64,000 nucleotides of DNA from Posidoniimonas corsicana (GTDB lineage: Bacteria > Planctomycetota > Planctomycetia > Pirellulales > Lacipirellulaceae): contig NZ_SIHJ01000001.1 of assembly GCF_007859765.1 (NCBI RefSeq), positions 2,667,311 to 2,731,310 of the forward strand, given 5' to 3'. The first letter of the stretch is position 1, and every line of letters begins with the position of its first letter. Positions 27,999 to 43,347 of this stretch are shown one piece after another. A program made the position numbers and the translations under genes. A model generated the notes under the pieces. That model saw only the letters and a list, made by a program, of their open reading frames with translations, did no database searches and had not been told where the DNA came from.

Positions 27999-29624
27999 TC
28001 ACTTCTCAAAAACAATTGGCACAATTATGCAAGCGTCATTTGTGTCGTCGCATGCAAGTACTAGATGCCTCTGCTGTACCGAAGCAGACGGGTCAATCAC
28101 AACAACAAGGTTGTGCATAGATTTATTTGAGGCATGCGATTCATCTGCAACCAATGCTACTCCTGGCTGCTTTTGAGCTTGCCTAATACTAAACTGGGCT
28201 CCATCTTCTCGAGACACCTGAAGTTTGCGCAAGATCTGCCCCGTTCTCGAGCCGATGCGTTTAGTGACCTGTAGTCGTCGGGGCATTACTCTAAATGGTG
28301 ACTCTTTGCGTCCAATTACTCTTATCGAGTGCGGTGGCGATGCAGGGGTAGAGAAGTGCACTGTGATAGATCCATAAATGTCGCCACTTGGACACATCTG
28401 GTCTAGGCTTGCTTCTATTTCGGCGGCGTCGGGAGACGTCTCCGCTACTCGCGCGGTAATGTAGGGATGATCACAATCCACCTTGGCGATCTTGGCTCCA
28501 CGGAACTTGCTGGAGAATCGCAGCACCGCCGAGGCGTGACTCTTATTGATTAGAGAAACTACACTGGGAACTGACGTGATAGGTCTGACGATTCTGCCGA
28601 ATACTCTAAACTGCGACGCTTTAGCCTCGCCTAGGTCATTCTCGAGTAGTACGAATATCGTCGACTCGAATCGTCCTGGCGTTGTGGCGTCCCTCAAGCT
28701 TATGGAGAAGCAAATCTCGTTTGCTTGCGATAGTTCAGATCCAGTATCCAACTCTGCAACAGTGCAGGCACAGCTGGTCTTGATTTTCTTAACGACCCAC
28801 GTTCTGTTATTGTCGCAAGCAATCTTTCCTACTCTATTAGCGGCCGTTCCCGCAATCACCTCACCAAAATCGATGTCACTAGACTCAACCGGCTGGCTCA
28901 GGTCGATCCTCTCGCCACTGCCTTGCGATTCGATCTCCTTACCAATTTCCATGGTGCAGCCGCTTACGCCAATCGCGCAAGACAGCGATGCTAGAACCGC
29001 CGCAGGCTGACGATTGGGGCGTGCCAGCTCAAGACCGCGACAAATGCCGAGCGGGAGAACGCGCCAAAGGAGCAGTATCCCGGCGGCTGACCATAAGGTT
29101 AGTGACAGAGTATCGGCGCGTTGTGTAAAGTCTGCAATGCTGACTTTGCTGTCTGAAATCAGAAGCGCGGCGCCGGTGAAAGACCTTGGCAACGTCGATA
29201 TCACCTCCATGGAATCTGTCCTTGGATCCCAGCAGTGAAGGTCTCCTTTGTGACGGCTCGGGAAGACTGCAACGAAATGCCCACCAAGGTCATTCTGAAG
29301 ATGAAGTATCGCCGGGGTTCCAATGAGTTTAACGCGATCCGCTGGCAGCGCGATTGCAAGACTGTGAAGTCCAGCGGTATCTGCGCACTTGCTCAGAGCT
29401 GCAATGCTCGCGCCCTGAGGACCTGAGGGGCAAATGGAAACGATTTTCTTGAGAGGCAGGTCGCGGCCCAGTCTGCCAGCGATTAATGCAAGGCATTGTT
29501 GCCCGCAAGATTGGTCTGGATGGCTCTCTGCAAATCTCTCCTCGTTTGCTCTCAAGGCAACAGGAGCGCAGAGAGGGATCGTGATTGCTCCCACGAGTTG
29601 CACCAAGGATACCAACAAGTTCAC
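27999..29624 (-). CDS. C39-like peptidase fused to DUF1573 domain (cassette A)
   Basis: 541 residues from a GTG start with AGGAG 9 nt upstream. Residues 1-27 are a signal or anchor. About residues 33-155 look like a C39 peptidase: C40 in QSCGQQCLALIAG, H116 in LGGHFVAVF, D133 in HCWDPR form a plausible triad. A membrane helix is at 172-194. A second hydrophobic stretch follows, ending in a lipobox-like LSCAIGVSGC. Then come DUF1573-type immunoglobulin-like domains (DFGEVIAGTAANRVGKIACD, KKIKTSCACTVAELDTG). C39 enzymes cleave leader peptides of exported peptides. Last gene of cassette A, 93 bp after the LolA-like gene. The fusion point may be an ancient gene joining. Domain calls from motifs only. 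Confidence 0.65.
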   Translation of the reverse strand: MNLLVSLVQLVGAITIPLCAPVALRANEERFAESHPDQSCGQQCLALIAGRLGRDLPLKKIVSICPSGPQGASIAALSKCADTAGLHSLAIALPADRVKLIGTPAILHLQNDLGGHFVAVFPSRHKGDLHCWDPRTDSMEVISTLPRSFTGAALLISDSKVSIADFTQRADTLSLTLWSAAGILLLWRVLPLGICRGLELARPNRQPAAVLASLSCAIGVSGCTMEIGKEIESQGSGERIDLSQPVESSDIDFGEVIAGTAANRVGKIACDNNRTWVVKKIKTSCACTVAELDTGSELSQANEICFSISLRDATTPGRFESTIFVLLENDLGEAKASQFRVFGRIVRPITSVPSVVSLINKSHASAVLRFSSKFRGAKIAKVDCDHPYITARVAETSPDAAEIEASLDQMCPSGDIYGSITVHFSTPASPPHSIRVIGRKESPFRVMPRRLQVTKRIGSRTGQILRKLQVSREDGAQFSIRQAQKQPGVALVADESHASNKSMHNLVVVIDPSASVQQRHLVLACDDTNDACIIVPIVFEK

Positions 29625-29717
29625 GCAGGCCCTCTCCTGAAACGATTGAATGCGTACGGAAGCTGCCTGGTCAATAGTGGGCTATCGATCGATCTGGCAT
29701 TGCGATCCGATCTGTAC

Positions 29718-30941
29718 CTAGTTCTGCAATCTATAGACTAATGCTACTAGTAGCAGTACTATTACTGCGACGTTGATGGCCACAAGAGTATGGTTTGGTC
29801 GATTCCCGGCTTCTGAATCAGCATTTGAGTTTATTTCAAGTCCATGTGGAAACGGATTATGTGTTAACGGCGGCATTGACGGGTCATTTTCTGATACGCG
29901 AAGGGCAACCGCAGCAAGCTGGTCGGTGCGTACGCCACTAGGTGGCACGCGGTATCGCACATCGTACCGGTGGTCAAAGACGACGGAGCCCGGGGCTCCG
30001 ATAAACGAGAAAGTGTCGTCATCAAGTATCGGGGAGTTGACGACAAGGTTTTGAAAGTCGGCTTCCCACCGGAACCACTCCTTGGAGCTCGCTGAGTTCA
30101 CGGTTCGTGACCGGCTTCCGTATGGCATCCAAACCCCCCCAGTCTTCTTCAACTTAGTGAGGTCTTGGTGAATATCCGTACCATTGCCCAGGGCTCGCCG
30201 ATGAAAGCCTGTAACTAAGTATCCCCTATCCGGTGCAACTGAGAACCGGATATTGTAGCCCTTGGAGGAACCGACGCCTTTTGAGGTGAACTCGATCACA
30301 TACTCTCGGCAGCTCAAGTCTTTGTTATGTGACTCGGTTACAGTGGCTTCAGCGCCGTTCCGTATAGCTTTATCAAAGCACTTCCGCGCACTGTCAGAGC
30401 ACCAATCAATGGCGTTGGGCAGTCTGGTCATCACTAGATCTTGCCCATCCGCCCCCTTGCCATTGTAAATTGCCGTACTTAGCAGCCCCATTTCTCCTGC
30501 CGGCTCATCCCCATTGCTGTCTACGCCAATGACCCCATGGTGCGGTACATCCGCACGGAAGGTAGACAAGTAACTCGTGCCTCCGTCGAAAATATCGTCG
30601 TATGTGCGAAGCTCTTGTGCGATCCCTTCAATGGATTTGGTGACTCGGGACCGAAACCGGCCCAACGAGTCAGACCATAGTCTTTGGGTATAGACCTCAA
30701 CTGGCTTATCCAGTTCGGTGTAGCGCCACCTTATGTCGGCTTGGAGGTTGTCGACAAGTGGGAAGCGTGATTCAACCTTGTCCATAATCGCACCCGCGCT
30801 CGGAAGTTCATCCCCCCCGTTGGCTGCACTCGCGGCGTTTGAGAATGCGGTGACGAGCGTCGCAATTGCGAAGAGTGCCTGAAATAGATCGTGATGATAG
30901 TTCAGATAAGTGTGGAAGATTATCGACCTGGGGTTTTTCAT
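29718..30941 (-). CDS. LolA-like exported protein with C-terminal anchor (cassette A)
   Basis: 407 residues with a signal peptide (about 1-39, ends ASAAN). The mature part resembles the LolA/LolB half-barrel (IMDKVESRFPLVDNLQADIR, then alternating Tyr/Arg-rich strands). A C-terminal membrane helix is HTLVAINVAVIVLLLVALVY followed by RLQN. The protein at 36230-37297 has the same plan and a similar tail (HKVLLVINILACVVLTLLAI). Likely held in the membrane facing the periplasm. It may carry or sense hydrophobic cargo, but I know of no function for such anchored forms. It follows the Cys-rich peptide gene in both cassettes, which argues for a shared task. Confidence 0.55.
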   Translation of the reverse strand: MKNPRSIIFHTYLNYHHDLFQALFAIATLVTAFSNAASAANGGDELPSAGAIMDKVESRFPLVDNLQADIRWRYTELDKPVEVYTQRLWSDSLGRFRSRVTKSIEGIAQELRTYDDIFDGGTSYLSTFRADVPHHGVIGVDSNGDEPAGEMGLLSTAIYNGKGADGQDLVMTRLPNAIDWCSDSARKCFDKAIRNGAEATVTESHNKDLSCREYVIEFTSKGVGSSKGYNIRFSVAPDRGYLVTGFHRRALGNGTDIHQDLTKLKKTGGVWMPYGSRSRTVNSASSKEWFRWEADFQNLVVNSPILDDDTFSFIGAPGSVVFDHRYDVRYRVPPSGVRTDQLAAVALRVSENDPSMPPLTHNPFPHGLEINSNADSEAGNRPNHTLVAINVAVIVLLLVALVYRLQN

Positions 30942-31530
30942 CTGCTAGAGCCTTGGGGAGTGTGGTCGCAGTCGTCTACGCGGCAATTGCCAGCAGGCGA
31001 GCCGTATTCGCCGGGTGGTTGACTCAGATGGGGCGTTGCCTGGCCAAGCCAGGAATGGAGATACGGACTCGCTCTCCGGAGCTTCTAGCGCGGCGTCCCT
31101 GGTGTGCCGCCCTGGCGGCTAAGCTCACAGGGTAATAGCGGTAGTACTAACGATGCGTAGTGCTCGCTTGCTCCCGAAGCAACGAGCTCGACGATTCTTT
31201 TCAATTCAAATAAGGCGATGAAGCCTGGGATGTGACAGCTGAATGCCAAGCCTCGGATACTTGCATTGTGCATCCACGAGACACCCTTCCACGGCGGTCC
31301 CACTCAGGCGCAACTCAAAGCCTTAGGTCATCAGCGTTGTCGAAACTCCTGCCAGGTTGAAACAGGATCTAGCCCCTTCAACCGTTGGAGTGGGATAAAC
31401 GCAGGCATAGCTTGATTGGGACAACGATCTGTAGTTCTCGGAGACGCTGCCGCACGACCACGCGCGCATGGACGGAGGTGAGTTCGAGGTCGCCGTTGGC
31501 ACCGTCGCAAGGTTTGCTGCGTTGGAGTAA
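30942..31530. other. Gene-free stretch inside cassette A
   Basis: Nearly 590 bp between the LolA-like gene and the Cys-rich peptide gene. Short frames exist on both strands, but none has a ribosome site, signal peptide or family motif. The matching place in cassette B is only 255 bp. It could be the remains of a lost gene, for instance a second Cys-rich peptide, since cassette B carries two. Confidence 0.3.
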
Positions 31531-31983
31531 CTAGCCGGTGGGGCAAGATGTGTAAAGAAAGACATCAGTAGGAACCTCGTTGTCCGTCCAAGAAGTGCAG
31601 TGTTCTGTGCATGCGCCACCTTCGTCCTCTGCGCAAGATCGAGTTCTGGTGCAAGTCTCTGGAATGGATGGTGTGCACCACTTCTTGCCTGTCCCGACCG
31701 CTTTGCAGTAGGCCTTGTCAATGCCTGAATGTTGGGTGTGGAAGTTGCACGGACCACCGGCCGCGCAAGGGCTTTCGGGGCCGAACTCGTGGTAGACGCA
31801 CGATTCATCGCCATCGCATGCCGTGTCGTCGGTGTCCTTCGCATAACAGTTTGAAGTCCCACCTTGAATTAGGGCTTGTGCAGCCTTCGGGAGAGCCTGA
31901 GCCGGACTCAGAGAAGGCGACAACTGTCCGGCTAGCAAAGCCGAGCTGACAGCCAAGAGTACGAATAGGGAGTTCACGGACAT
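31531..31983 (-). CDS. Secreted 12-cysteine peptide (cassette A)
   Basis: Start set at ATG 31983, preceded by AAAGGAG at 7 nt; 150 residues. Signal peptide about 1-30 (FVLLAVSSALLAGQLSPS, ends PAQA). A ~15-residue spacer leads to a mature domain with exactly 12 cysteines, e.g. SNCYAKDTDDTACDGDESCV, GKKWCTPSIPETCTRTRSC and GGACTEHC. The number 12 is the same in the two peptides of cassette B, although spacing differs. Six disulfides would make it a compact extracellular peptide. It is placed between the PMT-like and LolA-like genes. No database family recognised. Confidence 0.7.
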   Translation of the reverse strand: MSVNSLFVLLAVSSALLAGQLSPSLSPAQALPKAAQALIQGGTSNCYAKDTDDTACDGDESCVYHEFGPESPCAAGGPCNFHTQHSGIDKAYCKAVGTGKKWCTPSIPETCTRTRSCAEDEGGACTEHCTSWTDNEVPTDVFLYTSCPTG

Positions 31984-32062
31984 GAACAGAGCTCCTTTGG
32001 GAAGATATACGATGCGACAACATTCCGGCGCCTCAACAACGCTCACATAGTATGCGGCACAC

Positions 32063-33925
32063 TTACTTGGAGTTGGATTGAAGAAGAGGGTAGACAACGG
32101 TATAGCTAACTCGTTTGCGATTTAGGGCACTTTCTTGTTGCTCTAGGAGTTCGCGTAGCTGGGATGCATTGGAGCTGCACCAGGGGTCCCAGCCTCCACC
32201 GTGTATATAGTAGACACTACAGTACTGCCCCGCCTGTGCCTCTAAAGGGGCGGGGGTTTGGTGACACGGGCAACGAAAAAGTCCAGGCGTCCTTAAGCTT
32301 CCAAGGCGTCCGACGCTAAGGCGCGAGCTTGCGTCTATCGAGCACGCGTCCCAATATACATACCTAAGGTCTTGCCCCCAATCGACGCTGCTTCCGAGCA
32401 AGTGCTCTGCCCCATTCAGCGGCCCACCAATCGACTCGTTAAAGTAACTCAAACTGTGCGGGTAGATCCATAAGCTGCTAGAGCTCAACCAGACGAGCAG
32501 CCCAGTGGAAACAACCGAGCCCACGCAAGTGTCGGCCCGGCTAACCGCATTGCCCTCTATTCGAGCGGCTTGGTTCGATTTGTCAAGTTTTCTCTCAAAG
32601 ATTCGGGAGCCGTAAGCAGTAATAACTCCGCTGATCCATATAAATGCGTAGGGGAAAGCAGGCAGCACGTACCGGAAGTGTTCGCTGAAGCCAGTCTTCG
32701 AGCTCACGACGCAAAGGACGACTATCGCAGGTGTCAACAAAAGCAGAGAGTCGCGAGCGGGGGCAGGATGAACTCCCCAAAGCGACAGTAAAATGCAGGC
32801 TCCCCCTAACGTCAGCAAGCCCAGGGGCACTTTGATGAGGCCTGCGTACAGATAGTAGTGCCACCACCCGCGGTCCCTCCATTCCCCTCGCAAGTACGAA
32901 GGCCGACCATAACTCTCAAAATCCTTCTGCTGAGTGTCGATGCCCAGCAAGTAGTTCTTGGGGAACGGGACTGGTAGGTCGGCGAGCCAAGTGCTGGCGA
33001 AGCGGTTGGTGAACTCGTGTTTCGGTTCTCGGGTCTCGGAGTCCGGAGGGGCTTCGCCGGTGAACAGTTTGCTCACAAAGTGGAACTCTTTGAGCCGCAT
33101 GAAACTCTCGTCGAATCCGTAGCCGAGGTTCACCACGTACAGTCCAATCGCCATCCGCAAGACCAACATGCCCGCTTCGCGGCCCCACGTGTGAGGCGTC
33201 ATGGTTGCCCGGTCTTGCCAGCGGTAGGCGAGCCACAGCATCGGCCAGAGGGGGTAGAAGAGGATCAGCGTGGTCTTGGCCAGTTCCGCGAGCCCGAGTA
33301 CGACGCCGGTCAGTGCTGCTTGTGCCCAGGTGGGCGTCTTGAGCCATCGCCAGAACGTGTAGCAGGCCGCCAGCCCCAATGCGGTAGCATGCGCGTCGGC
33401 GGTAATTAGCGATGCGTGGGCCAGGATGTTGGGCTCGAAGCACCAAATTAGGCACGCGATGAGTCCCGCGGTTCGGCCGTAAAGGTCGCGTCCCCACAGA
33501 TAACAGACGACGGCGCCCAGCCAGCTGAACGGTATGCAGGCCCAGCGGGCGATCATCGTCAGGAAGAACGTCCGTGTACCGTTGGCAGCGACAAAATCCT
33601 TGCCCATGTCAAAGACGGGGCGGGCACCTGGTCCTTCATAGAACCCGCTCCAGTCGCTTTCGTAGCCCACGGCCATCACGGGCAACGCGGCGGCCATCCG
33701 CACCAGCGGCGGATTCACGCGGTAAAGTTCAAACCTACCAAACTTCCAGTGGCTAAGGCCGGCGACTAGGTGCCCCGGCTCGTTGAGTGTCGGGCTGTGC
33801 ACGTACGCGCTGTACATCAGCAGGCTTGTGTGGACCGCCAGCAGCCCGACCACCACCCGCCCCGCGACGCGCGGCTGGTCAACCAGCTGGCCGAGCCTCT
33901 GGAAGCTGGTTAGCAGGCTGCTCAT
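32063..33925 (-). CDS. PMT/ArnT-like GT-C membrane glycosyltransferase (cassette A)
   Basis: 620 residues with about ten membrane helices. The first periplasmic loop has SPTLNEPGHLVAGLSHWKFG (N48-E49) and VNPPLVRMAAALPV, which matches the DE-P-H and NPPL signature of GT39/ArnT-type enzymes, except that Asn replaces the first acidic residue. Later segments include the helix PNILAHASLITADAHATALG and a soluble C-terminal part. Such enzymes move mannose or another sugar from a polyprenyl phosphate to protein or lipid outside the membrane. The GT2 gene 9 bp upstream would make the lipid-linked sugar. Paralogue at 39462-41363, strongly similar over the first ~400 residues and different at the C-terminus. 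Confidence 0.8.
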   Translation of the reverse strand: MSSLLTSFQRLGQLVDQPRVAGRVVVGLLAVHTSLLMYSAYVHSPTLNEPGHLVAGLSHWKFGRFELYRVNPPLVRMAAALPVMAVGYESDWSGFYEGPGARPVFDMGKDFVAANGTRTFFLTMIARWACIPFSWLGAVVCYLWGRDLYGRTAGLIACLIWCFEPNILAHASLITADAHATALGLAACYTFWRWLKTPTWAQAALTGVVLGLAELAKTTLILFYPLWPMLWLAYRWQDRATMTPHTWGREAGMLVLRMAIGLYVVNLGYGFDESFMRLKEFHFVSKLFTGEAPPDSETREPKHEFTNRFASTWLADLPVPFPKNYLLGIDTQQKDFESYGRPSYLRGEWRDRGWWHYYLYAGLIKVPLGLLTLGGACILLSLWGVHPAPARDSLLLLTPAIVVLCVVSSKTGFSEHFRYVLPAFPYAFIWISGVITAYGSRIFERKLDKSNQAARIEGNAVSRADTCVGSVVSTGLLVWLSSSSLWIYPHSLSYFNESIGGPLNGAEHLLGSSVDWGQDLRYVYWDACSIDASSRLSVGRLGSLRTPGLFRCPCHQTPAPLEAQAGQYCSVYYIHGGGWDPWCSSNASQLRELLEQQESALNRKRVSYTVVYPLLQSNSK

Positions 33926-33934
33926 TGATTGCCG

Positions 33935-34672
33935 TTAGTTCCAATACCGATAACGCACAATGCACCACAATGCCCGAAGCCCGTCGCGCACTCCGATCTT
34001 CTTCCCTTCGGCGTAGGATCGCGGCGTGTAGCTCACCGGGAGCTCCGCAATCCGGCAGCCGAGCTTGGCCAGCCTTGCCGTCAGCTCTGGTTCAAAACCA
34101 AACCGATCTTCACAGAGCTTCATTTCGTCGATCGATTCGCGGCGGAACGCCTTGTGGCCGGTCTCCATATCCGTGAGCGATAGGCCCGTGAAGCGATTGG
34201 AGAGCCAGGTCAGCAGCCAGTTAGCCAAGTAGCGTTCGCGTGGAGTTTGCTGGCGGTCGCCGAGCCCGAATCGTGTGCCGTAGACCACGTCCGCTTCCAA
34301 TCGGAGCAGTGGCTCGACGAGCCGCGGGATCTCTTCCGGGGCGTACTCCAGGTCTGCGTCTTGGATCACGACGATGTCGCCACGGCAGTTGGCTAGCCCT
34401 GTGCGGATGGCAGCCCCTTTCCCTCGGTTCTGTTCGTGACGAAACACCCGCAGGCGATCACCGGAGGGGTCAGCCGCCGCCGACACGCCGCCATCGCTCG
34501 ACCCGTCATCAATCACGAGCACTTCGGACACGCAATCGAGCGGAAGCAGGCGGTTGACCACCTCGTTCACCTTGCCGGACTCGTTGTAGACCGGCACTAT
34601 GACCGAGACCGAAGCTGTCGCGACGGTTGGGCCGGTCTCTGTTTCAGATTGTACTAGTTTAAGGGCTGGCAT
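33935..34672 (-). CDS. GT2 polyprenyl-phosphate sugar synthase (cassette A, intact)
   Basis: Start set at ATG 34672 (MPALKLVQSE), which overlaps the end of the upstream thioredoxin-like remnant by 14 bp. 245 residues. GT-A fold motifs: SVIVPVYNESGKVNEVVNRL at 22-41, VLVIDDGSSDGG at 51-62, GKGAAIRTGLANCRGDIVVI and the metal-binding DAD at 105-107. The pattern is that of dolichol/undecaprenyl-phosphate mannose synthases (DPM1-like, soluble form without a membrane tail). It would transfer a sugar from GDP- or UDP-sugar to a polyprenyl phosphate for the PMT-like enzyme that starts 9 bp downstream. The copy in cassette B is broken, so this one may serve both. Confidence 0.85.
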   Translation of the reverse strand: MPALKLVQSETETGPTVATASVSVIVPVYNESGKVNEVVNRLLPLDCVSEVLVIDDGSSDGGVSAAADPSGDRLRVFRHEQNRGKGAAIRTGLANCRGDIVVIQDADLEYAPEEIPRLVEPLLRLEADVVYGTRFGLGDRQQTPRERYLANWLLTWLSNRFTGLSLTDMETGHKAFRRESIDEMKLCEDRFGFEPELTARLAKLGCRIAELPVSYTPRSYAEGKKIGVRDGLRALWCIVRYRYWN

Positions 34673-34957
34673 TCTGGATGCTCGGCTTGTCAAACGAGGC
34701 GTTCGTTGTGACGCCATCGCGGAGAGTGAATTCGACCGGCGCCTGCACGAACCATTTGCGGTCATGGGTTAGCCTTGCGTACCTCCGGCGTCGAAAGTTG
34801 TGGCCAGAGCCGTAGGGCGAACCTCCACTAACAGCACTGAAGGGCAGGCCGACGGCGCGTTCTGGGCGCGAATCACCTCGTACTTTGGGCGAGCTAATTC
34901 GCACTTGGAGCTATCGTGGCGATAGAGTAGCACCACCGACTCCCCCACAGCAAATTG
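34659..34957 (-). pseudogene. Decayed thioredoxin-like domain (cassette A)
   Basis: After the stop codon of the MauE-like gene, the same frame continues as QFAVGESVVLLYRHDSSKCE and RPKYEVIRAQNAPSACPSVL. A frameshift then leads to YARLTHDRKWFVQAPVEF and TNASFDKPSIQNASP. The intact cassette B protein reads QLATGEWVVLLYHHDCPKCQ and YARLTDRREWFVQAPIEI at the same places. So cassette A has an in-frame TAA, at least one frameshift, and loss of the first redox cysteine (CPKC to SSKC). Confidence 0.85.
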
Positions 34958-35575
34958 TTAGGATGGCTCGAGAAATCCGCTTAGCGGGAAGGGCTGGCCA
35001 GTCCACTTCTTCGGTTCTGGTAACGTCATCCCGCCAACGTCTTTAAGCAGCGGGATTGCTTGCGCCCCACTGGGGGCAACCAACGCGAGGCACGGGCCGC
35101 CTAACGCGACGTATCTGGCGAACGCGACACGCATTGCGCGAGGGCGGCGAAACTCGGTTTCGGGCCTGACAAGCGTCAGCGCGCCTAAGACAACAACGTT
35201 GAGCCCGACCGACCACCAAGGGGTGACCTTGATCAGGCCGAAGCAGCCGCATGACTCGGCGCCGCCAAGCACACGGTACGCAAAGAACGCGGAGAACACC
35301 AACAGCACAGTCTGGGTGGCTCGTCGCGATTGGCGGGGCCAGGCGTACCACAGCAGGGCTATGCCCAGGGCGGTCTCTGCTTGGACGGCTAGCAGGATAG
35401 CCCACTGGGGCACGCTGTACGCGGACTCCAGCAGCGCCGACTCCCCGGGCGATGTCGCTTTTACAAATGCTGAGGTAATCAGCAGAATCCCAACCGCCAC
35501 GCGGGCAGTCGCCCACGCCGATGAGGATTCATTGGCAAAAACCTTGATAGGGTTGCTGGCGGCGAACTCAGGCAT
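34958..35575 (-). CDS. MauE/DoxX-like redox membrane protein (cassette A, truncated)
   Basis: Start set at ATG 35575 (MPEFAASNP), because the cassette B homologue starts at the same residues; the frame upstream belongs to a transposase remnant. 205 residues. Four membrane helices with KATSPGESALLESAYSVPQW, the redox motif ESCGCFGLIKVTPWW after helix 3, and a C-terminal ...LPEPKKWTGQPFPLSGFLEPS. The homologue continues into a thioredoxin-like domain, which here is cut off by a stop codon. MauE-like proteins handle thiol oxidation for exported proteins. First gene of cassette A. Confidence 0.8.
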   Translation of the reverse strand: MPEFAASNPIKVFANESSSAWATARVAVGILLITSAFVKATSPGESALLESAYSVPQWAILLAVQAETALGIALLWYAWPRQSRRATQTVLLVFSAFFAYRVLGGAESCGCFGLIKVTPWWSVGLNVVVLGALTLVRPETEFRRPRAMRVAFARYVALGGPCLALVAPSGAQAIPLLKDVGGMTLPEPKKWTGQPFPLSGFLEPS

Positions 35576-35609
35576 TACGAGAACCTCGGATAGGCCTGAG
35601 TTCGCCGCC
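35558..35609. repeat. 16-bp perfect inverted repeat at the mauE-like start
   Basis: GGCGGCGAACTCAGGC (35558-35573) and its exact complement GCCTGAGTTCGCCGCC (35594-35609) with a 20-nt loop. The left arm contains the first codons of the MauE-like gene and the right arm lies in the IS5-type remnant. Cassette B lacks the right arm. It would form a hairpin over the ribosome site, so it may hinder translation, or be a scar of an insertion. Confidence 0.6.
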
Positions 35610-35689
35610 CGCTTCTGCAGGCTGGTGTAGTCGGGGATCGCGATGCCAACGCCCATCAGCTTCACTAGCGATCGTCCGATACCTGTGGT
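35576..35689 (-). pseudogene. IS5-type transposase fragment
   Basis: The frame directly upstream of and in phase with the MauE-like gene reads TGIGRSLVKLMGVGIAIPDY then TSLQKRAANSGLSE. This corresponds to the N-terminal region of IS5 transposases (LM-LD-P-PDYTTL-RRA). Only ~38 residues remain. The insertion ended precisely at the start of cassette A. Confidence 0.65.
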
Positions 35690-36112: not shown

Positions 36113-36229
36113 CTCGATCGCAAGGTTTAGGAATGCTCAACCACACCTTTCAGGCAGTGGCAGTACAGGTCGCTCCTGTAAGATGAAGTAACGGCAAAAA
36201 CACTTTCTGTACGATAAGAGCCGAGTCAA

Positions 36230-37297
36230 CTATCGATAGAATTTCATCTTTGCTCTCATGATCGCCAATAAAGTTAGTACGACACAAGCAAGGATGTTAA
36301 TGACTAGAAGTACCTTGTGGCGCTGAGGCGTCTCGCCAGGTCTGCCCAGGGCATCGCTGGCATCTCGCCCGCCAGTGTCATCTGAGTTCATTCGCCGTAA
36401 GGTGCCACCCTCCCAAACCATGCCAGTCGCTCGCCCTGACGTCGAATCAACGACGCGTGTCCCCTCAGGAAGGTTGAAGCCCTCTAGTGTGAACGCTTCG
36501 GGGGGAGTTTTGCCTAAAGACACTCTACTTACTTCAATTTCCATGTCTTGGGTAATCTTATCACCATACCTCACCACCGTGTGTGACTTTAGGGGGAACC
36601 AACTCGTGGTGTTATTGCCCACCACTGATTGATAAGAAGTCTCAATAATGGCATGCGACAGCTTATCGAGCCCAGCAGCACGCCATGTTCTCTCCACTCG
36701 GGTGAGCTGGCCGTCGAATCTATCATCCATTGTGATTGTCAGCCGGCCATTCGCCTTGGTTCCAAATTCATAATGCCTAACACTACCGTCCTTGCTCGCA
36801 TCGTTTGGAGACAACTCAACCTTCGGGATGCCAAGGAAGTCGCGAATGTTGCGATACGGGAAACGCGCCCGCAACGAATAGACCCCGTCGAGGGTTGTTC
36901 CGATCCCACGTGGGTCGAACATATACTGATTGAGGAATGGTTGATTTACAGATTCCGCCGACGTTCGCTCCACCAGCAACTCCTGTCCCGGGTCATGCAA
37001 GAAGACTTGATCTGTCAGTGCCTTTCGGTCCCATGGGCCCCAGCCGTCCATGAGTGGAGAAGTTGCACGCGTGTCAAAACGAATTCTACTCTTATCGAAG
37101 AAAACACTGTGTTGAAAGACAATCGAGTTCTCATCGAGCCTGTCCCTTACTTCCACTAATGCAGTTCCTGACTCGTACAACTCGTCTCGGTATGCGACTA
37201 AATCGTCAATCGCATCTGATTGGGCAATGGACGCCCCAATACAGGTCATGAGAAAGGCAGATAGAACACCCATGCGAAGATCGCACTGACTCGCCAT
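36230..37297 (-). CDS. LolA-like exported protein with C-terminal anchor (cassette B)
   Basis: Start set at ATG 37297 (MASQCDLRMGVLSAFLMTCI), which yields a signal peptide; an upstream ATG at 37378 has only polar sequence before it. 355 residues. The mature part is beta-rich (VEVRDRLDENSIVFQHSVFF, LTITMDDRFDGQLTRVERTW) and ends with HKVLLVINILACVVLTLLAI and a basic tail. It has the plan of the cassette A protein at 29718-30941, though sequence identity appears low outside the tail. Last gene of cassette B. Function not known. Confidence 0.55.
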   Translation of the reverse strand: MASQCDLRMGVLSAFLMTCIGASIAQSDAIDDLVAYRDELYESGTALVEVRDRLDENSIVFQHSVFFDKSRIRFDTRATSPLMDGWGPWDRKALTDQVFLHDPGQELLVERTSAESVNQPFLNQYMFDPRGIGTTLDGVYSLRARFPYRNIRDFLGIPKVELSPNDASKDGSVRHYEFGTKANGRLTITMDDRFDGQLTRVERTWRAAGLDKLSHAIIETSYQSVVGNNTTSWFPLKSHTVVRYGDKITQDMEIEVSRVSLGKTPPEAFTLEGFNLPEGTRVVDSTSGRATGMVWEGGTLRRMNSDDTGGRDASDALGRPGETPQRHKVLLVINILACVVLTLLAIMRAKMKFYR

Positions 37298-37552
37298 CAC
37301 AACCACTCTTGTGTTTCTGCAGGCGAGTCGCGTGAGTGTCGACGATAATGGCCTGGAGGAGTCAGGGCTACTCATCAATCGATTCTTGCGAAGTGTCTTA
37401 AGTCAGCACTGTGGAAGCAGATCAGCACTTGTGCGTCGCCCGGCAACTAAAACGAGCGATCATCGTCATCAGTTCATTCGACGCATTACACCTTTCCTGC
37501 GTGGGCAAGGCGTATCGCAATTCATTGCAGAAAGTGCTGTCGCAGCCTTGAG

Positions 37553-37969
37553 TTAGGCAGTGCAGTCTACACATTCAACAGTGGCGTATACTGCAGTCCC
37601 AGTGACAACCGCTTTGCCCGTAGCTGGATTTATCAATGGCGTACCCTGTCCGCACCCATTTCCAGTCCAAGTGCAATTGTACCAAGTCTCGCAAATCCCG
37701 TTTCCTATGTTTTCGCACCTATCCGTTGTAATATCGCCTCCACCGACGCACGAGTTGTGCCTGGGCTGTCGGGTATTCATTGCTCCCGAGCAGGTTTCGG
37801 GGGTCGACCCCGAGCAGGTAGCTGCCGTTCCGCATGGAGCGAGCGGAGCCGGATTAGTGCCGTCACAGCAGGGAGCAGATACAAGCGGTGCAGCCAGAGT
37901 CGCTAGGAAAAGTAAAGTGGCAAGACTTGTCAAAAGTGCTCTTTGAAAGTGTTCAGTTCGAATAAGCAC
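37553..37969 (-). CDS. Secreted 12-cysteine peptide 1 (cassette B)
   Basis: GTG start at 37969 with TTAGGAG 6 nt before it. 138 residues. Signal peptide about 1-31 (LLTSLATLLFLATLAAPLVS, cut before PCCDG). The mature part has 12 cysteines including CENIGNGICETWYNC, GNGCGQGTPLINPATG and VECVDC. The second half aligns with the frameshifted neighbour (CERIG---C--YYKC-W---C--G-PL-DPVTG). Tandem duplication is likely. Stop at 37553 leaves 255 bp to the LolA-like start. Confidence 0.7.
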   Translation of the reverse strand: MLIRTEHFQRALLTSLATLLFLATLAAPLVSAPCCDGTNPAPLAPCGTAATCSGSTPETCSGAMNTRQPRHNSCVGGGDITTDRCENIGNGICETWYNCTWTGNGCGQGTPLINPATGKAVVTGTAVYATVECVDCTA

Positions 37970-38079
37970 GCGAATCTCCTAAATTACTAGTGGTTCACCG
38001 GCTCTCGGCCGAGCTGGGAATCCTGCATATGGCGGAGTTGGCGTCATTGGGCGATGTAGTCGCAGCATATGACGGCAAT

Positions 38080-38533
38080 TCAAGAGCATGGATTAGTGCA
38101 CGCTACGGCGCCGTAAGCGTCCTCATACTCTTTCTCTGGTACGCCAGTTACCGGATCTACGAGGGGCAATCCCTGCACGCACTGTCCAGATTGCCAAACG
38201 CATTTGTAGTACTGATAACAAGTAACGCGGCCAATTCTCTCACACTTCTCTGTGCACTTGTCTTCACCAGGGCCCGGAGAGAGGCAATCCCACGTTCCTC
38301 CCGAAATAACAGTGATAATAGCCTGATTGCAGGAAGGCTCGTCATAGTTTGTAGAGTCACAAGTGCCGCCTCCCCCCCGCTCCGGGGCAGTCAGTGTATT
38401 GGGCTGGATAGGTGCCGTCGCAGTTGGGATTCCCCAGGGTTGTCAACGGTTGAAGCGTGCAGCATGCAGTGATCCAGATGGAGGCCAATCGAAAGTTAGA
38501 ACCGCTCTTTCTGCCATAAGAGGTTGTTGCCAT
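38080..38533 (-). pseudogene. Secreted 12-cysteine peptide 2, frameshifted in a G7 run (cassette B)
   Basis: From ATG 38533 the frame gives MATTSYGRKSGSNFRLASIW, then NPNCDGTYPAQYTDCPGAGG, and fails at a run of seven G (C on the plus strand, near 38375). Removing one G continues into GGTCDSTNYDEPSCNQAIIT, WDCLSPGPGEDKCTEKCERI, YYKCVWQSGQCVQGLPLVDP and a final CTNPCS, stop at 38080-38082. The repaired product is 150 residues, the same as the cassette A peptide, with 12 mature cysteines. Either a sequencing error, a recent mutation, or slippage-based on/off switching. Confidence 0.75.
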
Positions 38534-38594
38534 TTGTTTGGCCTCCCTTGGTTAGGCTGGTCGACCGAACCAGCAGCTGCGACTTGCCTAGGAT

Positions 38595-39302
38595 TCAGTT
38601 GTGAAGAATTTCAACCGGCAATTCTGCGGTGGGCTGTCTCGTGTTGTCGGTGACTACGGTAACGCCCGAATGCGACGGAGTGCCGGGCCAATCGCTAGGA
38701 TCAAACTCGATTGTGAGCAAATTCGGATTGGAGGGATGCACAGCAGCCTTAATCCACGTATTGCGAGGTTCGCAGCGTAGGATAGTTGGTGCATCTGTTC
38801 CGATCAGTGATTCAATCCTAAGCACTTTTCGTTGTTTCGAATGCGAGCTGAAGGCGATGGCACCGTGCGGTTGGAATGCGTAATCATCTTCGATGTCGGC
38901 GCTAACGAGGATTGAGCTTCTCTGCTGCGGTACTCTGTCACTCACCTTGTAGTCGATCAGTATCGACGTGGAGAATTGACCTCTTCTTCGACCGATATCA
39001 AACGCACACTTAATGGTGAGTAGTTGGCCAGGAAGGACGGAGTCTGTGGTCGCAGTCGCTTCAGAGCACCCGCAGCTCGTTCGAATCGTGCTGATTTGCA
39101 ACGTGCTTTGAGAGCCATTCCTTAGGAATAAGGTCTCGGATAACGTTGCACCAGGATCTAGCGATCCCAAATGTATTGAAGTCTGTGCGGGCAATCCCTG
39201 CAATTGAGGCGAATTCCCATTGTCTGACTGCAGGAGTCCGTAACCGCTCCATAAGGCGACAACAAACGCCAAAATCGCAGTTGACTCCCAAGCACGCGTC
39301 AT
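38595..39302 (-). CDS. DUF1573-type anchored protein (cassette B)
   Basis: 235 residues. An N-terminal membrane anchor (STAILAFVVALWSGYGLLQS, residues 7-26) is followed by a DUF1573 immunoglobulin-like domain: IHLGSLDPGATLSETLFLRN, then STIRTSCGCSEATA with the typical TSCGC, and LLTIKCAFDIGRRRGQFS. A second beta-rich half ends at the stop. Cassette A carries the same domain fused behind a C39-like peptidase. DUF1573 proteins often neighbour MauE/thioredoxin genes. Lies 61 bp upstream of the frameshifted peptide. Confidence 0.75.
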   Translation of the reverse strand: MTRAWESTAILAFVVALWSGYGLLQSDNGNSPQLQGLPAQTSIHLGSLDPGATLSETLFLRNGSQSTLQISTIRTSCGCSEATATTDSVLPGQLLTIKCAFDIGRRRGQFSTSILIDYKVSDRVPQQRSSILVSADIEDDYAFQPHGAIAFSSHSKQRKVLRIESLIGTDAPTILRCEPRNTWIKAAVHPSNPNLLTIEFDPSDWPGTPSHSGVTVVTDNTRQPTAELPVEILHN

Positions 39303-39461
39303 CTGTCAGGCTCGCGATAATCGTGTAGTTGCCCTTGCAGGAACCTCAGGACCCCTTTCCTGCCAATTGCGAGGTAGCCTGGGTTTCGGATTCCAAGTTG
39401 GAGATTAGCAACACAAGTGGCGCGGGAGGGCCGCTCAACATGTTGCGTGGAATGTACTAGT

Positions 39462-41363
39462 TCAATCCGCGATCCCGTATTCCCCTGTAGCCGACCAAGG
39501 CGCAAGCACGGTTAAGCCATAACCAGTTTGGGACCTTAACGCTCTACCTCGTCGGCGATTACGTGGTTCTGTACCGGTCTCACTTAGTATATTCAGTCGT
39601 GTAATAGCGGAAGCATTCAAGACACGCAGTACGGCTACATCCTTCAAATCGCACAGCAGAGAATAGGAAGTAGCGTTACTGATCGCTATGAAGCAGTCGG
39701 CGGGGTGATAGGTTACGGCATTCTCCGTTAGGTCCAAGCGTAAATCGGGATTCGTCACACACCAGCTCTCGAGATAGTAGTAGTCTTGTCCCCAATCTAA
39801 GTTGCTCCCAAGTAAATGCTTCGCCCCATTCAGTGGTCCACCAACGGTCTCGTTGAAGTAGCTCAGGCTGTGTGGATAAATCCACAAGCTGCTCGCGCTG
39901 AGCCAGGCGAGCATCACGGCGGGTGTGATCCATCGAAGCGGAACTCGAAGGCGGCGGGCCGCACGTGAGGTTATTAGAGCGTACTCTTTCGCTCTGTCAA
40001 ATTCTGTGTGAAGAGAATTACGATCTGAGTCGCGGAATATGCCCCCAATCCAAATAAAGAGGAACGGAAACGCCGGTAACGCATAACGAAAGTGTTCGCT
40101 GAAGCCGGTTTTAGAGCTTACGACGCAGAAGATGAGCAACGTTGGAAATAGCAGAACCAGTTCATCGCGGGGAGCTTTCGGCAGTGTCCTATCGGCAGTC
40201 GGCGCTACTCGCTGTTTCAGCCACAGCATTGCCGCGAGAAACGCGAGCAGCAACGCTGCTACGGGGACTTTGATAAGTCCCGCGTACAGGTAGTAATACC
40301 ACCATCCGTTGTTTCGCCACTCGCCCCGCAGGTACGAGGGGCGGCCGTTGCGCTCGAACGCTTTTTGTTGGATATCGATGCCGAGCAGGTAGTTCTTGGG
40401 AACGGGGACGGGTAGCTCGCCGACCCAGGTGTTGGAGAAGCGGGTGGTGGGGGCGGGGTTTGAGATTCGGGTCTCGGGTGCCGGGGGGGCTTCGCCGGTG
40501 AATAGGTTGCTTACGAACTGAAACTGGTTGAGCTGGGTAAAGCTGCCCTCGAAACCGTAGCCGAGGTTCACCACGTACAGACCGATTGCCATCCTAATCG
40601 CGAGCATGCCAGCCTCGCGAGCCCATGCCCTAGCGGTCATGGCCGCGCGGTCCTGCCAGCGGTAGGCGAGCCACAGCAGCGGCCAGAGCGGGTAGAACAG
40701 TATAAGCGTTGTCTTGGCCAGCTCAGCCAGTCCAAGCACCACGCCCGTCAGCGCTGCCTGCACCCAGGTGGGCTTCTTGAGCCATCGCCAGAACGTGTAA
40801 CAGGCGGCAAGACCTAGCGCCGTAGCGTGGGCGTCGGCGGTGATTAGCGACGCATGGGCGAGGATGTTTGGCTCAAAGCACCAGATAAAGCAGGCGACCA
40901 GTCCCGCGGATCGGCTGTAGAGGTCTCGCCCCCACAGGTAGCAGACAATCGCGCCCAGCCAGCTAAACGGGATACACGCCCAGCGGGCGATCATCGTCAG
41001 GTACAACGTCCGCGGGCCGTTGGCGGCGACAAAGTCCTCGCCCATGCCAAACACGGGCCTAGCGCCGGGGCCATCGTAGAACCCGGACCAATCTTCTTCA
41101 TAGCCCACCGCGATTACGGGAAGCGCGGCCACCATTCGCACGAGTGGCGGGTTGACCCGATACAGTTCAAACCGCCCGAACTTCCAGTGGCTGAGGCCGG
41201 CCACTAAATGTCCCGGCTCGTTGAGCGTGGGGCTGTGCACGAAGGCGCTGTACATCAACAGGCCCGTGTGCACTATCAGCAGCCCGAGTACCACCCGCCA
41301 TGCGATCCGCGGCTTATCGAGTAGCTGGGCGAGGCAATGGAAGCTGGCTTGCAAGCTGCTCAT
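39462..41363 (-). CDS. PMT/ArnT-like GT-C membrane glycosyltransferase (cassette B)
   Basis: 633 residues with the same start and helix plan as the cassette A enzyme (MSSLQASFHCLAQLLDKPRI; SPTLNEPGHLVAGLSHWKFG with N48-E49). Similarity is very high through about residue 350. A longer loop follows and the C-terminus diverges after the SYFNETVGGPLNGAKHLLG motif. It lies directly behind the broken GT2 of cassette B and depends on a lipid-linked sugar made elsewhere, probably by the cassette A GT2. Likely transfers sugar to exported proteins; the Cys-rich peptides of the cassette are candidate acceptors (inference). Confidence 0.8.
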   Translation of the reverse strand: MSSLQASFHCLAQLLDKPRIAWRVVLGLLIVHTGLLMYSAFVHSPTLNEPGHLVAGLSHWKFGRFELYRVNPPLVRMVAALPVIAVGYEEDWSGFYDGPGARPVFGMGEDFVAANGPRTLYLTMIARWACIPFSWLGAIVCYLWGRDLYSRSAGLVACFIWCFEPNILAHASLITADAHATALGLAACYTFWRWLKKPTWVQAALTGVVLGLAELAKTTLILFYPLWPLLWLAYRWQDRAAMTARAWAREAGMLAIRMAIGLYVVNLGYGFEGSFTQLNQFQFVSNLFTGEAPPAPETRISNPAPTTRFSNTWVGELPVPVPKNYLLGIDIQQKAFERNGRPSYLRGEWRNNGWWYYYLYAGLIKVPVAALLLAFLAAMLWLKQRVAPTADRTLPKAPRDELVLLFPTLLIFCVVSSKTGFSEHFRYALPAFPFLFIWIGGIFRDSDRNSLHTEFDRAKEYALITSRAARRLRVPLRWITPAVMLAWLSASSLWIYPHSLSYFNETVGGPLNGAKHLLGSNLDWGQDYYYLESWCVTNPDLRLDLTENAVTYHPADCFIAISNATSYSLLCDLKDVAVLRVLNASAITRLNILSETGTEPRNRRRGRALRSQTGYGLTVLAPWSATGEYGIAD

Positions 41364-41373
41364 AAGATTGATG

Positions 41374-41959
41374 CTAGTTCCAGTACCGATAAGGCACGAT
41401 GCACCTCAACGCCCGAATCCCGTCGCGTCCGCCGATCTTCTTCCCCTATGCGTAGAATCACGGAGTGTCGCTCACGGGGAGCTCCGCAAACCGCCAGCCA
41501 AGCTTGGCCATCCTAGTCGTCAGCTCCGGTTCAAAACCAAGCCGATCGTCACAGAGATTCACTTCATTGATCAACTCGCTATGGAACGCCTCGTGGCCGG
41601 TTCCCATGTCGGTGAGCGACAGGCCCGTGAATCGATTAGAGAACCAAGTCGGCGCCTGATTCGCAAAGAAGCGTTCGCGGGGAGATTGCTGGCGGTCGCC
41701 GCGCCCCAACCGGGTGCCGTAGAGCACGTCCGCCTCCAATCGAAGCAGTGGCTCGACGAGCCGGGGGATCTCTTCCGGGGCGTACTCCGGGTCCGCGTCT
41801 GACGACAACTTCAGTCACGCACTCCAACGCAAGCAGGCGATCGATAGCCTTGACCACCTTGCCGGACTCGTTGTAGACCGGCACGATGACCGAGACCGAA
41901 GCTGCAGCCAGGGTTGTGCCCGCCTCCGCATCTGGTTGTACTCGTTCAGGGGATGGCAT
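41374..41959 (-). pseudogene. GT2 polyprenyl-phosphate sugar synthase, broken (cassette B)
   Basis: It starts at ATG 41959 overlapping the thioredoxin stop, exactly as in cassette A, and is intact through SVSVIVPVYNESGKVVKAID and TEVVV. Then about 50 codons are deleted (the DDGSSD and GKGAAIRTGL motifs) with a frame change, and sequence resumes as DADPEYAPEEIPRLVEPLLR. Two stop codons follow near the end (DTP*FYA*GKK where cassette A has YTPRSYAEGKK). Catalytic DDG is missing, so the product cannot be active. Confidence 0.9.
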
Positions 41960-42872
41960 GCTGGATACTTGGCAGATCAAGCGAGGCGTTCGTGACGGCG
42001 CCATCGCGGAGTGTGATTTCGATTGGCGCCTGCACGAACCACTCGCGGCGGTCGGTGAGCCTTGCATAGTTAGGGTTAGGCATCGCTTGGTCCGTGCCGT
42101 ACGACGGAATCTCGACGAGTAGCACGAACGGGCCTGCGGAAGCTGCGTTCTGGGCAGCCAGCGCCTCGTACTTAGGTCGGGCCGCTTGGCACTTGGGGCA
42201 ATCGTGGTGATAGAGCAGCACAACCCACTCGCCGGTAGCGAGTTGGCGAGACGGTTCAATGAACTCGCTTAGCGGGAAGGGCCGGCCGACCCACTCCTCC
42301 GGTTCTAACAGCGTCATCCCGCCGATGTCTTTCAGCAGCGGGTTTGCATGAGCCTTGCTGGGGGCGACCAAGACTGCCAACGCTAGGCATAGGCCGCCAA
42401 CAACTGCGTAGCTGACAACCGCGAGACGGGTCGCGCGCGGGTGGCGACGGTCGGTTTCCGGCCTGCCAAGGTTTAGTGCGCCCAACACAACAACATCTAG
42501 TCCCAGCGTCCACCACGGGTTGACCTTGATCAGGCCGAAGCAGCCGCACGACTCGGCGCCAATAATCGCTCGGTACGCAGAGAACGCGGCGAACACCAAG
42601 AACGTGGCTTGGGCGGCTCGCCGCGTCTGGCTGGGCCAGGCGCCCCATAGCAGGGCGGCCCCCAGGGCGATCTCTGCCTGAATAGCCAGCAAGATAGCCC
42701 ACTGGGGCACGTTGTACGCGGACTCCAGCAACACCGACTCCCAGGGCGAGGTCGCCTTGAGAAGCGCAGAGGCAATCAGCAAAACGCCAACCGGCACGCG
42801 GACGGCCGTCCACACCGATGGGAGTCGATCTGGGAACGCCTTGTTAGGGTTGCTGGCGGCGAACTCAGGCAT
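41946..42872 (-). CDS. MauE/DoxX-like redox protein with thioredoxin-like domain (cassette B)
   Basis: 308 residues. Residues 1-175 hold four to five membrane helices with the redox motif C109-G-C111 (ESCGCFGLIKVNPWW). About residues 210-308 form a thioredoxin-like domain with C225-P-K-C228 in VVLLYHHDCPKCQAARPKYE and a late YARLTDRREWFVQAPIEI. MauE-type proteins plus CxxC domains form or shuffle disulfides in exported proteins, fitting the 12-Cys peptides encoded downstream. The gene is 15 bp after a small membrane protein and its stop overlaps the GT2 start. The cassette A copy has lost its thioredoxin part. Confidence 0.85.
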   Translation of the reverse strand: MPEFAASNPNKAFPDRLPSVWTAVRVPVGVLLIASALLKATSPWESVLLESAYNVPQWAILLAIQAEIALGAALLWGAWPSQTRRAAQATFLVFAAFSAYRAIIGAESCGCFGLIKVNPWWTLGLDVVVLGALNLGRPETDRRHPRATRLAVVSYAVVGGLCLALAVLVAPSKAHANPLLKDIGGMTLLEPEEWVGRPFPLSEFIEPSRQLATGEWVVLLYHHDCPKCQAARPKYEALAAQNAASAGPFVLLVEIPSYGTDQAMPNPNYARLTDRREWFVQAPIEITLRDGAVTNASLDLPSIQHAIP

Positions 42873-42887
42873 ACACGAAAACCTCGT

Positions 42888-43175
42888 TTAGGCCTGCGGA
42901 GGCTTGACCCACCAGTTGTACAATCTCAGCACGAGAGCGCCCGATGCCGAAAGGATCACGAGCGCTGCTTGGATGGCTGCTTGATCATCTGTAACCGGTG
43001 GGCCGTTCACGAGCCGCAGTAGCGGCGCTAACGCCACAACCACCCAGCACATGAACTCGATGGCTGGTGAAACCTCTCGAAATTTAACGCCTGACGCGAT
43101 GTTATCGCTTGCGGATTCGTCGGGCTGTTCTTGCTCGTCTCGAAGCAATTGTCCTGGCTGCCTCACACTGGACAT
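42888..43175 (-). CDS. Small membrane protein, head of cassette B
   Basis: 95 residues. Two hydrophobic segments: FMCWVVVALAPLLRLV at about 41-56 and AAIQAALVILSASGALVLRL at about 65-84, followed by YNWWVKPP. The first 40 residues are polar. Gap of 15 bp to the MauE-like gene suggests one transcript. No family recognised; cassette A has an IS5-type remnant at the matching place. Confidence 0.6.
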   Translation of the reverse strand: MSSVRQPGQLLRDEQEQPDESASDNIASGVKFREVSPAIEFMCWVVVALAPLLRLVNGPPVTDDQAAIQAALVILSASGALVLRLYNWWVKPPQA

Positions 43176-43329: not shown

Positions 43330-43347
43330 CTGTGTACAAAGTCAAGA

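Follow-up and report, generated by a model that had tools for sequence, protein, structure and literature searches.

A 64,000-nucleotide stretch of the Posidoniimonas corsicana genome (the window; G000:C1:2667311-2731310, from an assembly of 6.77 Mb in 13 contigs) contains two minus-strand gene cassettes, A and B, which belong to a recurring, apparently undescribed system that most likely serves peptide export, leader removal outside the cytoplasm, folding and perhaps glycosylation. It is probable that the cassettes encode a pathway by which small disulfide-rich peptides are exported and matured outside the cytoplasm, and no published description of this gene composition was found among open-licence papers. 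Cassette A has the order MauE, GT2, PMT, cysteine-rich (Cys-rich) peptide, LolA-like and C39-DUF1573, and cassette B the order MauE, GT2 remnant, PMT, DUF1573, Cys-rich B1, Cys-rich B2 and LolA-like; all cassette coordinates below refer to the minus strand. The cassettes had been recognized in an earlier note on this DNA, and both are borne out by open reading frames (ORFs) and domain scans, with the ORFs named there lying where it had placed them. Domain calls for C39 plus DUF1573, PMT_2/PMT, GT2, MauE and DUF1573 all exceed the Pfam cut-offs. The note also correctly assigned a DUF1573 protein to each cassette. In A it is fused to a C39 peptidase (27999..29624; C39 E 1.1e-12, DUF1573 E 3.2e-6, both above the Pfam cut-offs), while the stand-alone copy in B (38595..39302; Pfam E 3.9e-15) has an N-terminal hydrophobic segment as judged by eye.

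Across the window and the further loci collected for comparison, double-glycine leaders of the Cys-rich precursors coincide with the presence of a C39 peptidase nearby. These loci and their genomes carry L and G numbers, respectively. A search for C39 in 117 genomes gave a match in 24, and the resulting first C39 set comprised 39 places, nine of which lay in loci already collected and 21 of which were added as 20 regions; the nine left out were seven of exporter size and two others. A scan of the phylum gave a C39 match in 66 of 392 genomes, many in ORFs of exporter size, and from it a held-out set of 20 short-ORF C39 loci was taken (18 from the same class), leaving out about a dozen short-ORF matches from other classes. 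For controls, 20 stretches of 20 kb each were taken from 12 of the genomes at round coordinates set arbitrarily. Cys-rich ORFs passed a slightly looser filter in the held-out loci than in the first set. Inspection by eye marked ten ORFs as spurious (eight in loci, two in control L098), and these were dropped from the leader-motif, filtered regular-expression and matrix lists; the 8-kb co-occurrence counts drop the eight locus ORFs and retain the two from L098.

The full motif used to recognize leaders is the published pattern of hydrophobic residues at -4, -7 and -12 (from an extract of PMC10885120), with an acidic residue or Gln at -8 as an alternative, and the core motif is hydrophobic-x-G-[GAS] ahead of a Cys. 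The full motif is found in 23 of the 39 precursors with a C39 gene within 5 kb (13/18 in the first set and 10/21 in the held-out set) versus 1 of 15 precursors without one (one-sided Fisher p 4e-4); of the 256 control ORFs whose N-terminus is hydrophobic, two have it. For the core motif the figures are 30/39 near C39 versus 3/15 elsewhere. A leader matrix trained on 15 first-set leaders, picked by eye and scored by leave-one-out, reached at least 6 in 15/18 first-set precursors near C39, 12/21 held-out precursors and 1/15 precursors without C39; against this last group the scores of the first set gave p 6.6e-6 and those of the held-out set p 1.4e-4 (one-sided Mann-Whitney). The pattern had been noticed in the first set before the held-out loci were collected. 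The geometry is also rather constant, since for 22 of 24 leaders picked by eye the expected cut lies 20-28 residues past the signal segment, with a median of 23, and the first Cys comes 1-9 residues after the cut (median 4). The leader of the L115 precursor matches the NCBIfam CCRG-2 model for ribosomally synthesized and post-translationally modified peptides (RiPPs) with E 5.5e-4, below the cut-off. Cleavage by C39, put forward in the earlier note as a possibility, is supported at the level of sequence, in that double-glycine leaders go with the presence of C39, and the association points to export through Sec and then cleavage by C39 outside the cytoplasm.

In the window, the precursor of cassette A (31531..31983) consists of a signal segment, the leader LPKAAQALIQGG and a core with 12 Cys; its start was set at 31983, where AAAGGAG stands 8 bases upstream, and a homologue is present in L049 (26% identity, E 7e-11). 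Precursor B2 (37553..37969) has an AxA-type signal peptide, by eye, without a double-glycine leader. These are the two 12-Cys secreted peptides of the earlier note, each with 12 Cys after a hydrophobic segment, and that description holds; a third Cys-rich peptide, B1 (38080..38533), which is frameshifted at a G run, has to be added. Across the loci the Cys-rich cores diverge strongly, and paralogues stand in tandem.

An alternative is that C39 processes either a pseudopilin or the LolA-like protein, with the double glycine belonging to an ordinary signal peptide region. Fusions of C39 are indeed present, with DUF1559 in L128 and with LolA-like domains in L051, L060 and L073, and the target of a periplasmic C39 protein, FapD, is likewise unclear according to an excerpt of PMC5557850. 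However, the leader motif is commoner in precursors near C39, lies at a fairly fixed distance from the signal segment and the first Cys, and has the hydrophobic -4/-7/-12 pattern seen in substrates of peptidase-containing ATP-binding cassette (ABC) transporters (PCATs; extract of PMC10885120). This alternative is considered distinctly unlikely.

The compartment in which a leader would be removed is suggested by the proteins themselves. C39 residues Cys40 and His116 are invariant in 10/10 aligned sequences. Among 29 short C39 proteins (150-300 residues), 24 have an N-terminal hydrophobic segment and 18 have a segment after residue 120; the window C39-DUF1573 protein also begins with a hydrophobic segment. 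Signal or transmembrane segments of this kind suggest that the leader would be removed outside, not on the cytoplasmic side. Export by an ABC transporter was considered and is not supported: no ABC-like C39 ORF was seen by motif in any locus, and an ABC ATPase-like ORF, again by motif, lies within 8 kb of C39 in just one of 53 loci (L132) and not in the window, although this scarcity is partly built in and counts for less, because the C39-anchored loci were picked for ORFs below exporter size. None of the PMT-anchored loci, which were not picked by C39 size, was flagged for an ABC ATPase. The present loci resemble PCAT systems, as presented in the extract of PMC10885120, in having a small precursor, a leader with hydrophobic residues at -4, -7 and -12 that ends in GG, GA or GS, and a C39 peptidase with conserved Cys and His. 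They differ in that the precursor has an N-terminal signal or transmembrane segment of its own and the C39 is stand-alone, apparently exported and not fused to an ABC transporter. The cassettes would work like a double-glycine peptide system, yet they lack its defining feature, the C39-ABC pairing.

A closer parallel for the peptidase alone is Fap, in which FapD is a Sec-exported periplasmic C39 protein needed for the secretion of Sec-exported substrates, and in which the Fap proteins are without canonical C39 sites, as far as the excerpt of PMC5557850 goes. Both have an exported stand-alone C39, here judged from the N-terminal hydrophobic segments noted above. Unlike in Fap, the substrate candidate in the present loci is Cys-rich and often has a canonical leader, and other partner genes accompany the peptidase. 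The P. corsicana genome encodes one more C39 protein (L086:8121-8840, minus strand), which is without Cys-rich, LolA-like or DUF1573 neighbours; as no system genes adjoin it, it was set aside as seemingly of a different type.

The gene neighbourhood recurs in other genomes more often than in controls, and PMT relatives are not found alone; neither of the outcomes that the earlier note named as fatal to the idea of a system is seen. Co-occurrence was counted in 35 of the 41 PMT loci (five fall below 8 kb and L047 is without PMT), in 15/20 loci of the first C39 set and in 19/20 held-out loci, the remainder being shorter than 8 kb. Within 8 kb of PMT there are LolA-like genes in 20 loci, DUF1573 in 20, Cys-rich in 18, DUF1559 in 14, C39 in 11, MauE in 11, GT2 in 10 and hydrolase in 9. 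The same distance from C39 takes in LolA-like genes in 9 first-set loci, Cys-rich in 6, DUF1559 in 6, DUF1573 in 4, PMT in 2, and MauE and GT2 in 1 each; the held-out loci have LolA-like in 12, Cys-rich in 14, DUF1559 in 10, DUF1573 in 6, and PMT, MauE and GT2 in 3 each. The 20 controls contain DUF1559 in 4, DUF1573, Cys-rich, GT2, PMT and hydrolase in 1 each, and LolA-like, C39 and MauE in none. Enrichment at PMT loci is significant for LolA-like, DUF1573, Cys-rich, C39 and MauE (p<=0.004 for each) and for GT2 (p 0.03), and non-significant for the hydrolase (9/35 vs 1/20, p 0.06).

Moreover, the families are repeatedly joined in single proteins, as found with profiles built here. C39 is fused to DUF1573 in eight cases, the window protein included, and, besides the LolA-like and DUF1559 fusions of C39 described above, GT2 is fused to DUF1559 in L032 and L049, GT2 to MauE and DUF1573 in L056, and MauE to DUF1573 in L057. 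Among the C39-DUF1573 fusions the Pfam scan covered the window protein, the other seven being called by these profiles. Pfam scans of the eight other fusions placed two domains above the cut-off in four (L032, L049, L128 and L056, the last with GT2 and DUF1573 only); L060 and L073 gave C39 alone, L057 both domains below the cut-off and L051 nothing. C39 is also fused to a rhodanese domain in L117. No PMT or Cys-rich peptide was seen in these fusions.

Several observations weigh against the proposed pathway and its leader-peptidase pairing. Sixteen of the 39 precursors near C39 are without the full motif (in the first set L034 12796, L041, L061, L085 and window A). Of the 30 core matches, the one in L118 5968 falls off the leader. 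The window A leader fits the core and the -12 position, not -7 or -8, and so has one of three upstream features; the distance to its C39 is 3 kb. The highest-scoring matrix position differs from the leader seen by eye in L085 and L121, and in L051, a C39 locus, two precursors failing the filter have no clear leader. The peptide of L060, which missed the filter and is outside the counts, has a clear one. With regular expressions, the loose form is found in 28/39 precursors near C39 versus 2/15 without, and the stricter form is weaker at 17/39 versus 1/15 (p 0.011); these tests cut some precursors at a Cys within the signal segment, so that leaders are undercounted. Retaining the ten doubtful ORFs gives 28/43 versus 5/21 for the loose form (p 0.003), and contrasts confined to the held-out loci are non-significant because one filtered precursor there is without C39 within 5 kb. 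Just 15 of the 29 short C39 proteins are hydrophobic at both ends. As to the neighbourhoods, DUF1559 near PMT is non-significant (14/35 vs 4/20, p 0.11), PMT is rare at C39 loci, and the loci are non-independent, with several from G046, L117 and L118 closely similar, and L130 the contig of L035. The held-out loci outside the class (L131 and L132) are without other system genes, save for a weak GT2 match in L131.

Of 54 Cys-rich genes, 37 have a LolA-like neighbour no more than 1 kb away, on the same strand in 37/37 and downstream in 32, although for the first set this adjacency is partly circular and weakened as evidence, because the family was mostly gathered within 2.5 kb of Cys-rich genes; the held-out loci played no part in building it. 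L067 has three tandem Cys-rich/LolA-like pairs. For the LolA-like label of the earlier note, neither Pfam nor NCBIfam gives a match that passes its cut-off in the window copies (A, 29718..30941, with an N-terminal signal or transmembrane segment and a C-terminal transmembrane anchor; B, 36230..37378, with a C-terminal transmembrane anchor), and the label is supported by the predicted structure of copy A. This AlphaFold2 model, built from an alignment of 8 rows, is of moderate confidence (predicted local distance difference test (pLDDT) 62.7, predicted template modelling score (pTM) 0.57). Foldseek nevertheless matches it with probability 1.00 to DUF1329, LolA3 and LolB structures, and it aligns to 9tp6_A (LolA3) with a VIA Z of 14.5 over 197 residues at 3.6 A. 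Pairwise profile comparison (hhalign) places 31 of 48 candidates, including both window copies, in one cluster at >=95% probability; the direct comparison of copies A and B is weaker, at 61.9%. Members are very diverse in sequence, and among 54 full-length ones a C-terminal transmembrane segment is present in 52 and an N-terminal hydrophobic segment in 43. The predicted fold of the paired protein resembles that of LolA and LolB carriers, whereas these are a soluble periplasmic carrier and an outer-membrane lipoprotein, respectively, and the present family has a C-terminal anchor, is highly diverse and is tied to a peptide gene.

The enzymes of the cassettes would supply redox and sugar chemistry. 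The label of MauE/thioredoxin given previously holds for MauE, which is above the Pfam cut-off (intact copy B, 41946..42872, with a C-terminal CPKC region; E 5.6e-10), and as regards thioredoxin rests on the CPKC motif and a sub-threshold Thioredoxin match (E 0.12). Copy A matches the BT_3928 model far below that model's cut-off. Disulfide formation by MauE is plausible, with copy B the only intact one. The intact GT2 of cassette A (33935..34765; Pfam Glycos_transf_2 E 4.3e-32) resembles polyprenyl-phosphate sugar synthases and has AglJ as its best NCBIfam match, under the AglJ cut-off. Both window PMT copies (A, 32063..33925, PMT_2 E 1e-8; B, 39462..41363), glycosyltransferases of the GT39 type, exceed the cut-offs of PMT_2 and PMT; Glu49, an acidic residue placed by eye in the first external loop, and an NPPL motif are conserved in >=90% of 40 homologues.

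Peptide glycosylation is unlikely as a general step of C39 loci, because PMT is present within 8 kb in just 2/15 and 3/19 of them, and a glycosylated peptide as a general rule is not supported. The attachment of a sugar by GT2 and PMT is the weakest part of the scheme in the earlier note. Glycocins have disulfides and double-glycine leaders. Enterocin F4-9 and other glycocins are glycosylated small peptides, according to part of PMC8620827. Unlike in glycocins, a GT2 of polyprenyl type and a PMT in the membrane make up the sugar enzymes here, which would act outside the cytoplasm, the glycopeptide is only putative, and the window contains neither a PCAT exporter nor, by motif, an ABC ATPase-like ORF. 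A different comparison is offered by the NVEALA/BT_3928-type loci of Bacteroidetes, which combine MauE, DUF1573 and small secreted peptides, as do the present cassettes; LolA-like, PMT and exported C39 genes are not known from such loci. None of ten precursors scanned against NCBIfam matched NVEALA, the presence of an NVEALA model in that library not having been checked.

The relationship between A and B is one of partial duplication followed by reciprocal decay. DNA similarity is confined to 32369-35598 versus 39783-42896, where blastn aligns separate pieces at 76.6-80.5% identity: 32824-34361 versus 40263-41800 at 80.5%, 34515-35598 versus 41802-42896 at 76.6%, and short pieces reaching 32369 and 39783. 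The description of a duplicated cassette therefore holds for MauE, GT2 and PMT (the last to about residue 530), and fails for the Cys-rich, LolA-like and DUF1573 genes, among which no duplicates were recognizable by BLAST; by sequence, the downstream peptide modules are analogous rather than duplicated. Tandem duplication of the whole cassette was rejected because similarity ends inside PMT, and the view of the cassettes as intact duplicates because each has lost a different gene.

In cassette A, a stop codon interrupts MauE (34662..35665), so that ORF 34958-35665 ends before the CxxC part; beyond the stop, the CPKC of copy B reads SSKC, and the remnant, which reaches 34662, is in another frame. 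In cassette B, GT2 (41377..42046) is broken: a gap of 153 bases in A versus 1 in B corresponds to a 152-bp loss with a frameshift, and by position the deletion takes out the DDGSSDGG stretch present in A. Decay is reciprocal, A having lost the CxxC part of MauE and B the catalytic residues of GT2. A sequencing error is imaginable for the B1 frameshift at its G run, and hardly so for the GT2-B deletion. Since A keeps GT2 and B keeps MauE, one working enzyme set seems to be common to, and to serve, the two peptide modules in the window.

The two PMT proteins are 71% identical across their first ~530 residues, and their similarity stops at residue 523/531. Searched alone, the C-terminal tails (the last 105-110 residues; 32063-32380 and 39462-39790) gave no match to each other and no convincing relative; tail B matched in 17-37-residue pieces at E 0.006 or worse and tail A had nothing below E 0.4, while alignment of full-length PMT-A with L032 extends to residue 608. 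The tails may be cassette-specific. The two copies were the only ones found in the P. corsicana genome at E 0.001.

The cluster borders on mobile genes, and in principle its genes could adjoin merely by riding on mobile or accessory regions without joint function. Genes for a ParA/VirC1-like protein (48292-49008), a RepA-type replication initiator (49774-51123), a TrwC relaxase (55915-58392) and a TrwB coupling protein (58389-60008) stand on one side and suggest that an integrated plasmid or conjugative element carries the cluster; an IS3-type integrase core remnant (27330-27914, plus strand) lies at the far end of cassette A. IS3-like transposases occur in 8/41 PMT loci versus 0/20 controls, though in 0/40 C39 loci. 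The peptide, LolA-like and DUF1573 modules are also lower in G+C content (0.52-0.55 across 28-32 kb, 0.52-0.53 across 36-40 kb) than the MauE-GT2-PMT parts (0.58-0.61) and the flanks (0.57-0.67). Fortuitous adjacency is nonetheless very improbable and already disfavoured, given the repeated fusions between families, the conserved strand of LolA-like genes close to Cys-rich genes, and a leader type that functionally matches the presence of the peptidase. The differences in G+C content across 28001-42000 look as if modules had come from different sources.

Under the proposed pathway, the precursor would cross the inner membrane through Sec by means of its N-terminal signal segment, which would then hold it there. 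Precursors of the A type would keep a double-glycine leader of 12 residues after export until an exported, often membrane-anchored C39 (in the window fused to DUF1573) cuts after it and frees the Cys-rich core; for those of the B type, signal peptidase may be enough by itself. MauE with its CxxC region would provide disulfides, and the membrane-anchored LolA-like protein could be a cognate carrier, a chaperone or a means of producer protection for the adjoining peptide. GT2 and PMT may build a polyprenyl-linked sugar and transfer it to the peptide or to a partner, and DUF1559 pseudopilins may contribute to outward transfer. The more specific picture, in which Sec-exported precursors tethered to the membrane are released by anchored C39 and are served by LolA-like carriers of their own, and in which redox, glycosyltransferase and pseudopilin modules are exchanged between cassettes carried by conjugative elements, is a tentative though serious possibility. 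Our guess is that the peptides finally act in interaction between cells.

Cysteine-rich YTV proteins are known from planctomycete cell-wall preparations (in part of PMC8567305), and the Cys-rich proteins could similarly be envelope components, disulfide-cross-linked and glycosylated, with the cassette as their assembly line. The redox, sugar-transfer, LolA-like and pseudopilin genes would suit such a role. Against it, PMT is patchy, with a homologue (E 1e-10) in 38/117 genomes, that of P. corsicana counted, and none in G001 of the same genus; in addition, the cores are highly variable, the paralogues tandem and the cluster adjoined by conjugation and plasmid genes. These four features are more in keeping with an accessory, transferable trait, for example interaction between cells by way of peptides, than with a structural part of the wall, and an envelope function is regarded as unlikely.

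In ABC exporters, double-glycine leader and C39 form a known pairing on the cytoplasmic face, and if the proposed pathway is correct, this bacteriocin-type pair has here been turned inside out. The set of apparently exported C39 peptidases comes with candidate substrates, many with textbook leaders, so that substrate, cut site and compartment are directly testable. Planctomycetes would then have a hidden class of disulfide-rich secreted peptides, which searches for RiPPs that start from PCATs would presumably overlook, and a function would be at hand for LolA-like, DUF1573 and DUF1559 proteins now called unknown.

The cluster had been taken to end at 43175; the cassettes lie as stated, and the right-hand end must be moved, because plus-strand genes beyond it belong too. 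These encode a small protein (43051..43770) with homologues in L032 and L040, an alpha/beta hydrolase (43836..44708, by domain scan), two DUF1559 pseudopilin-like proteins (44854..45705, with an N-terminal methylation motif, and 45722..46813, with that motif under the cut-off) and a second alpha/beta hydrolase (46848..47807). The nearest named relative by PMT protein, Botrimarina hoheduenensis Pla111 (L032; 70% identity in the best segment), likewise encodes DUF1559 proteins, hydrolases and the small protein next to MauE and GT2, and its GT2 is fused to a DUF1559 protein.

Elsewhere, G046 (L046, L055, L060-L065) has 18 PMT-family pieces on several contigs, many beside Cys-rich peptides, which amounts to a strong expansion. 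The PMT relative of L037 is on a short contig labelled Emcibacter, an alphaproteobacterium; the contig is probably a mis-binned planctomycete one. Finally, a protein of ~400 residues, termed 'FamX', recurs in C39-type loci (for example L033:12249-13457, L034:8938-10164, L073:9483-10781 and L113:8537-9742). Six members scanned gave no Pfam match above cut-off and its structural model is unreliable (pLDDT 41.6); the 14 full-length members are characterized by an N-terminal hydrophobic segment, a CxGxH motif and other conserved His residues.

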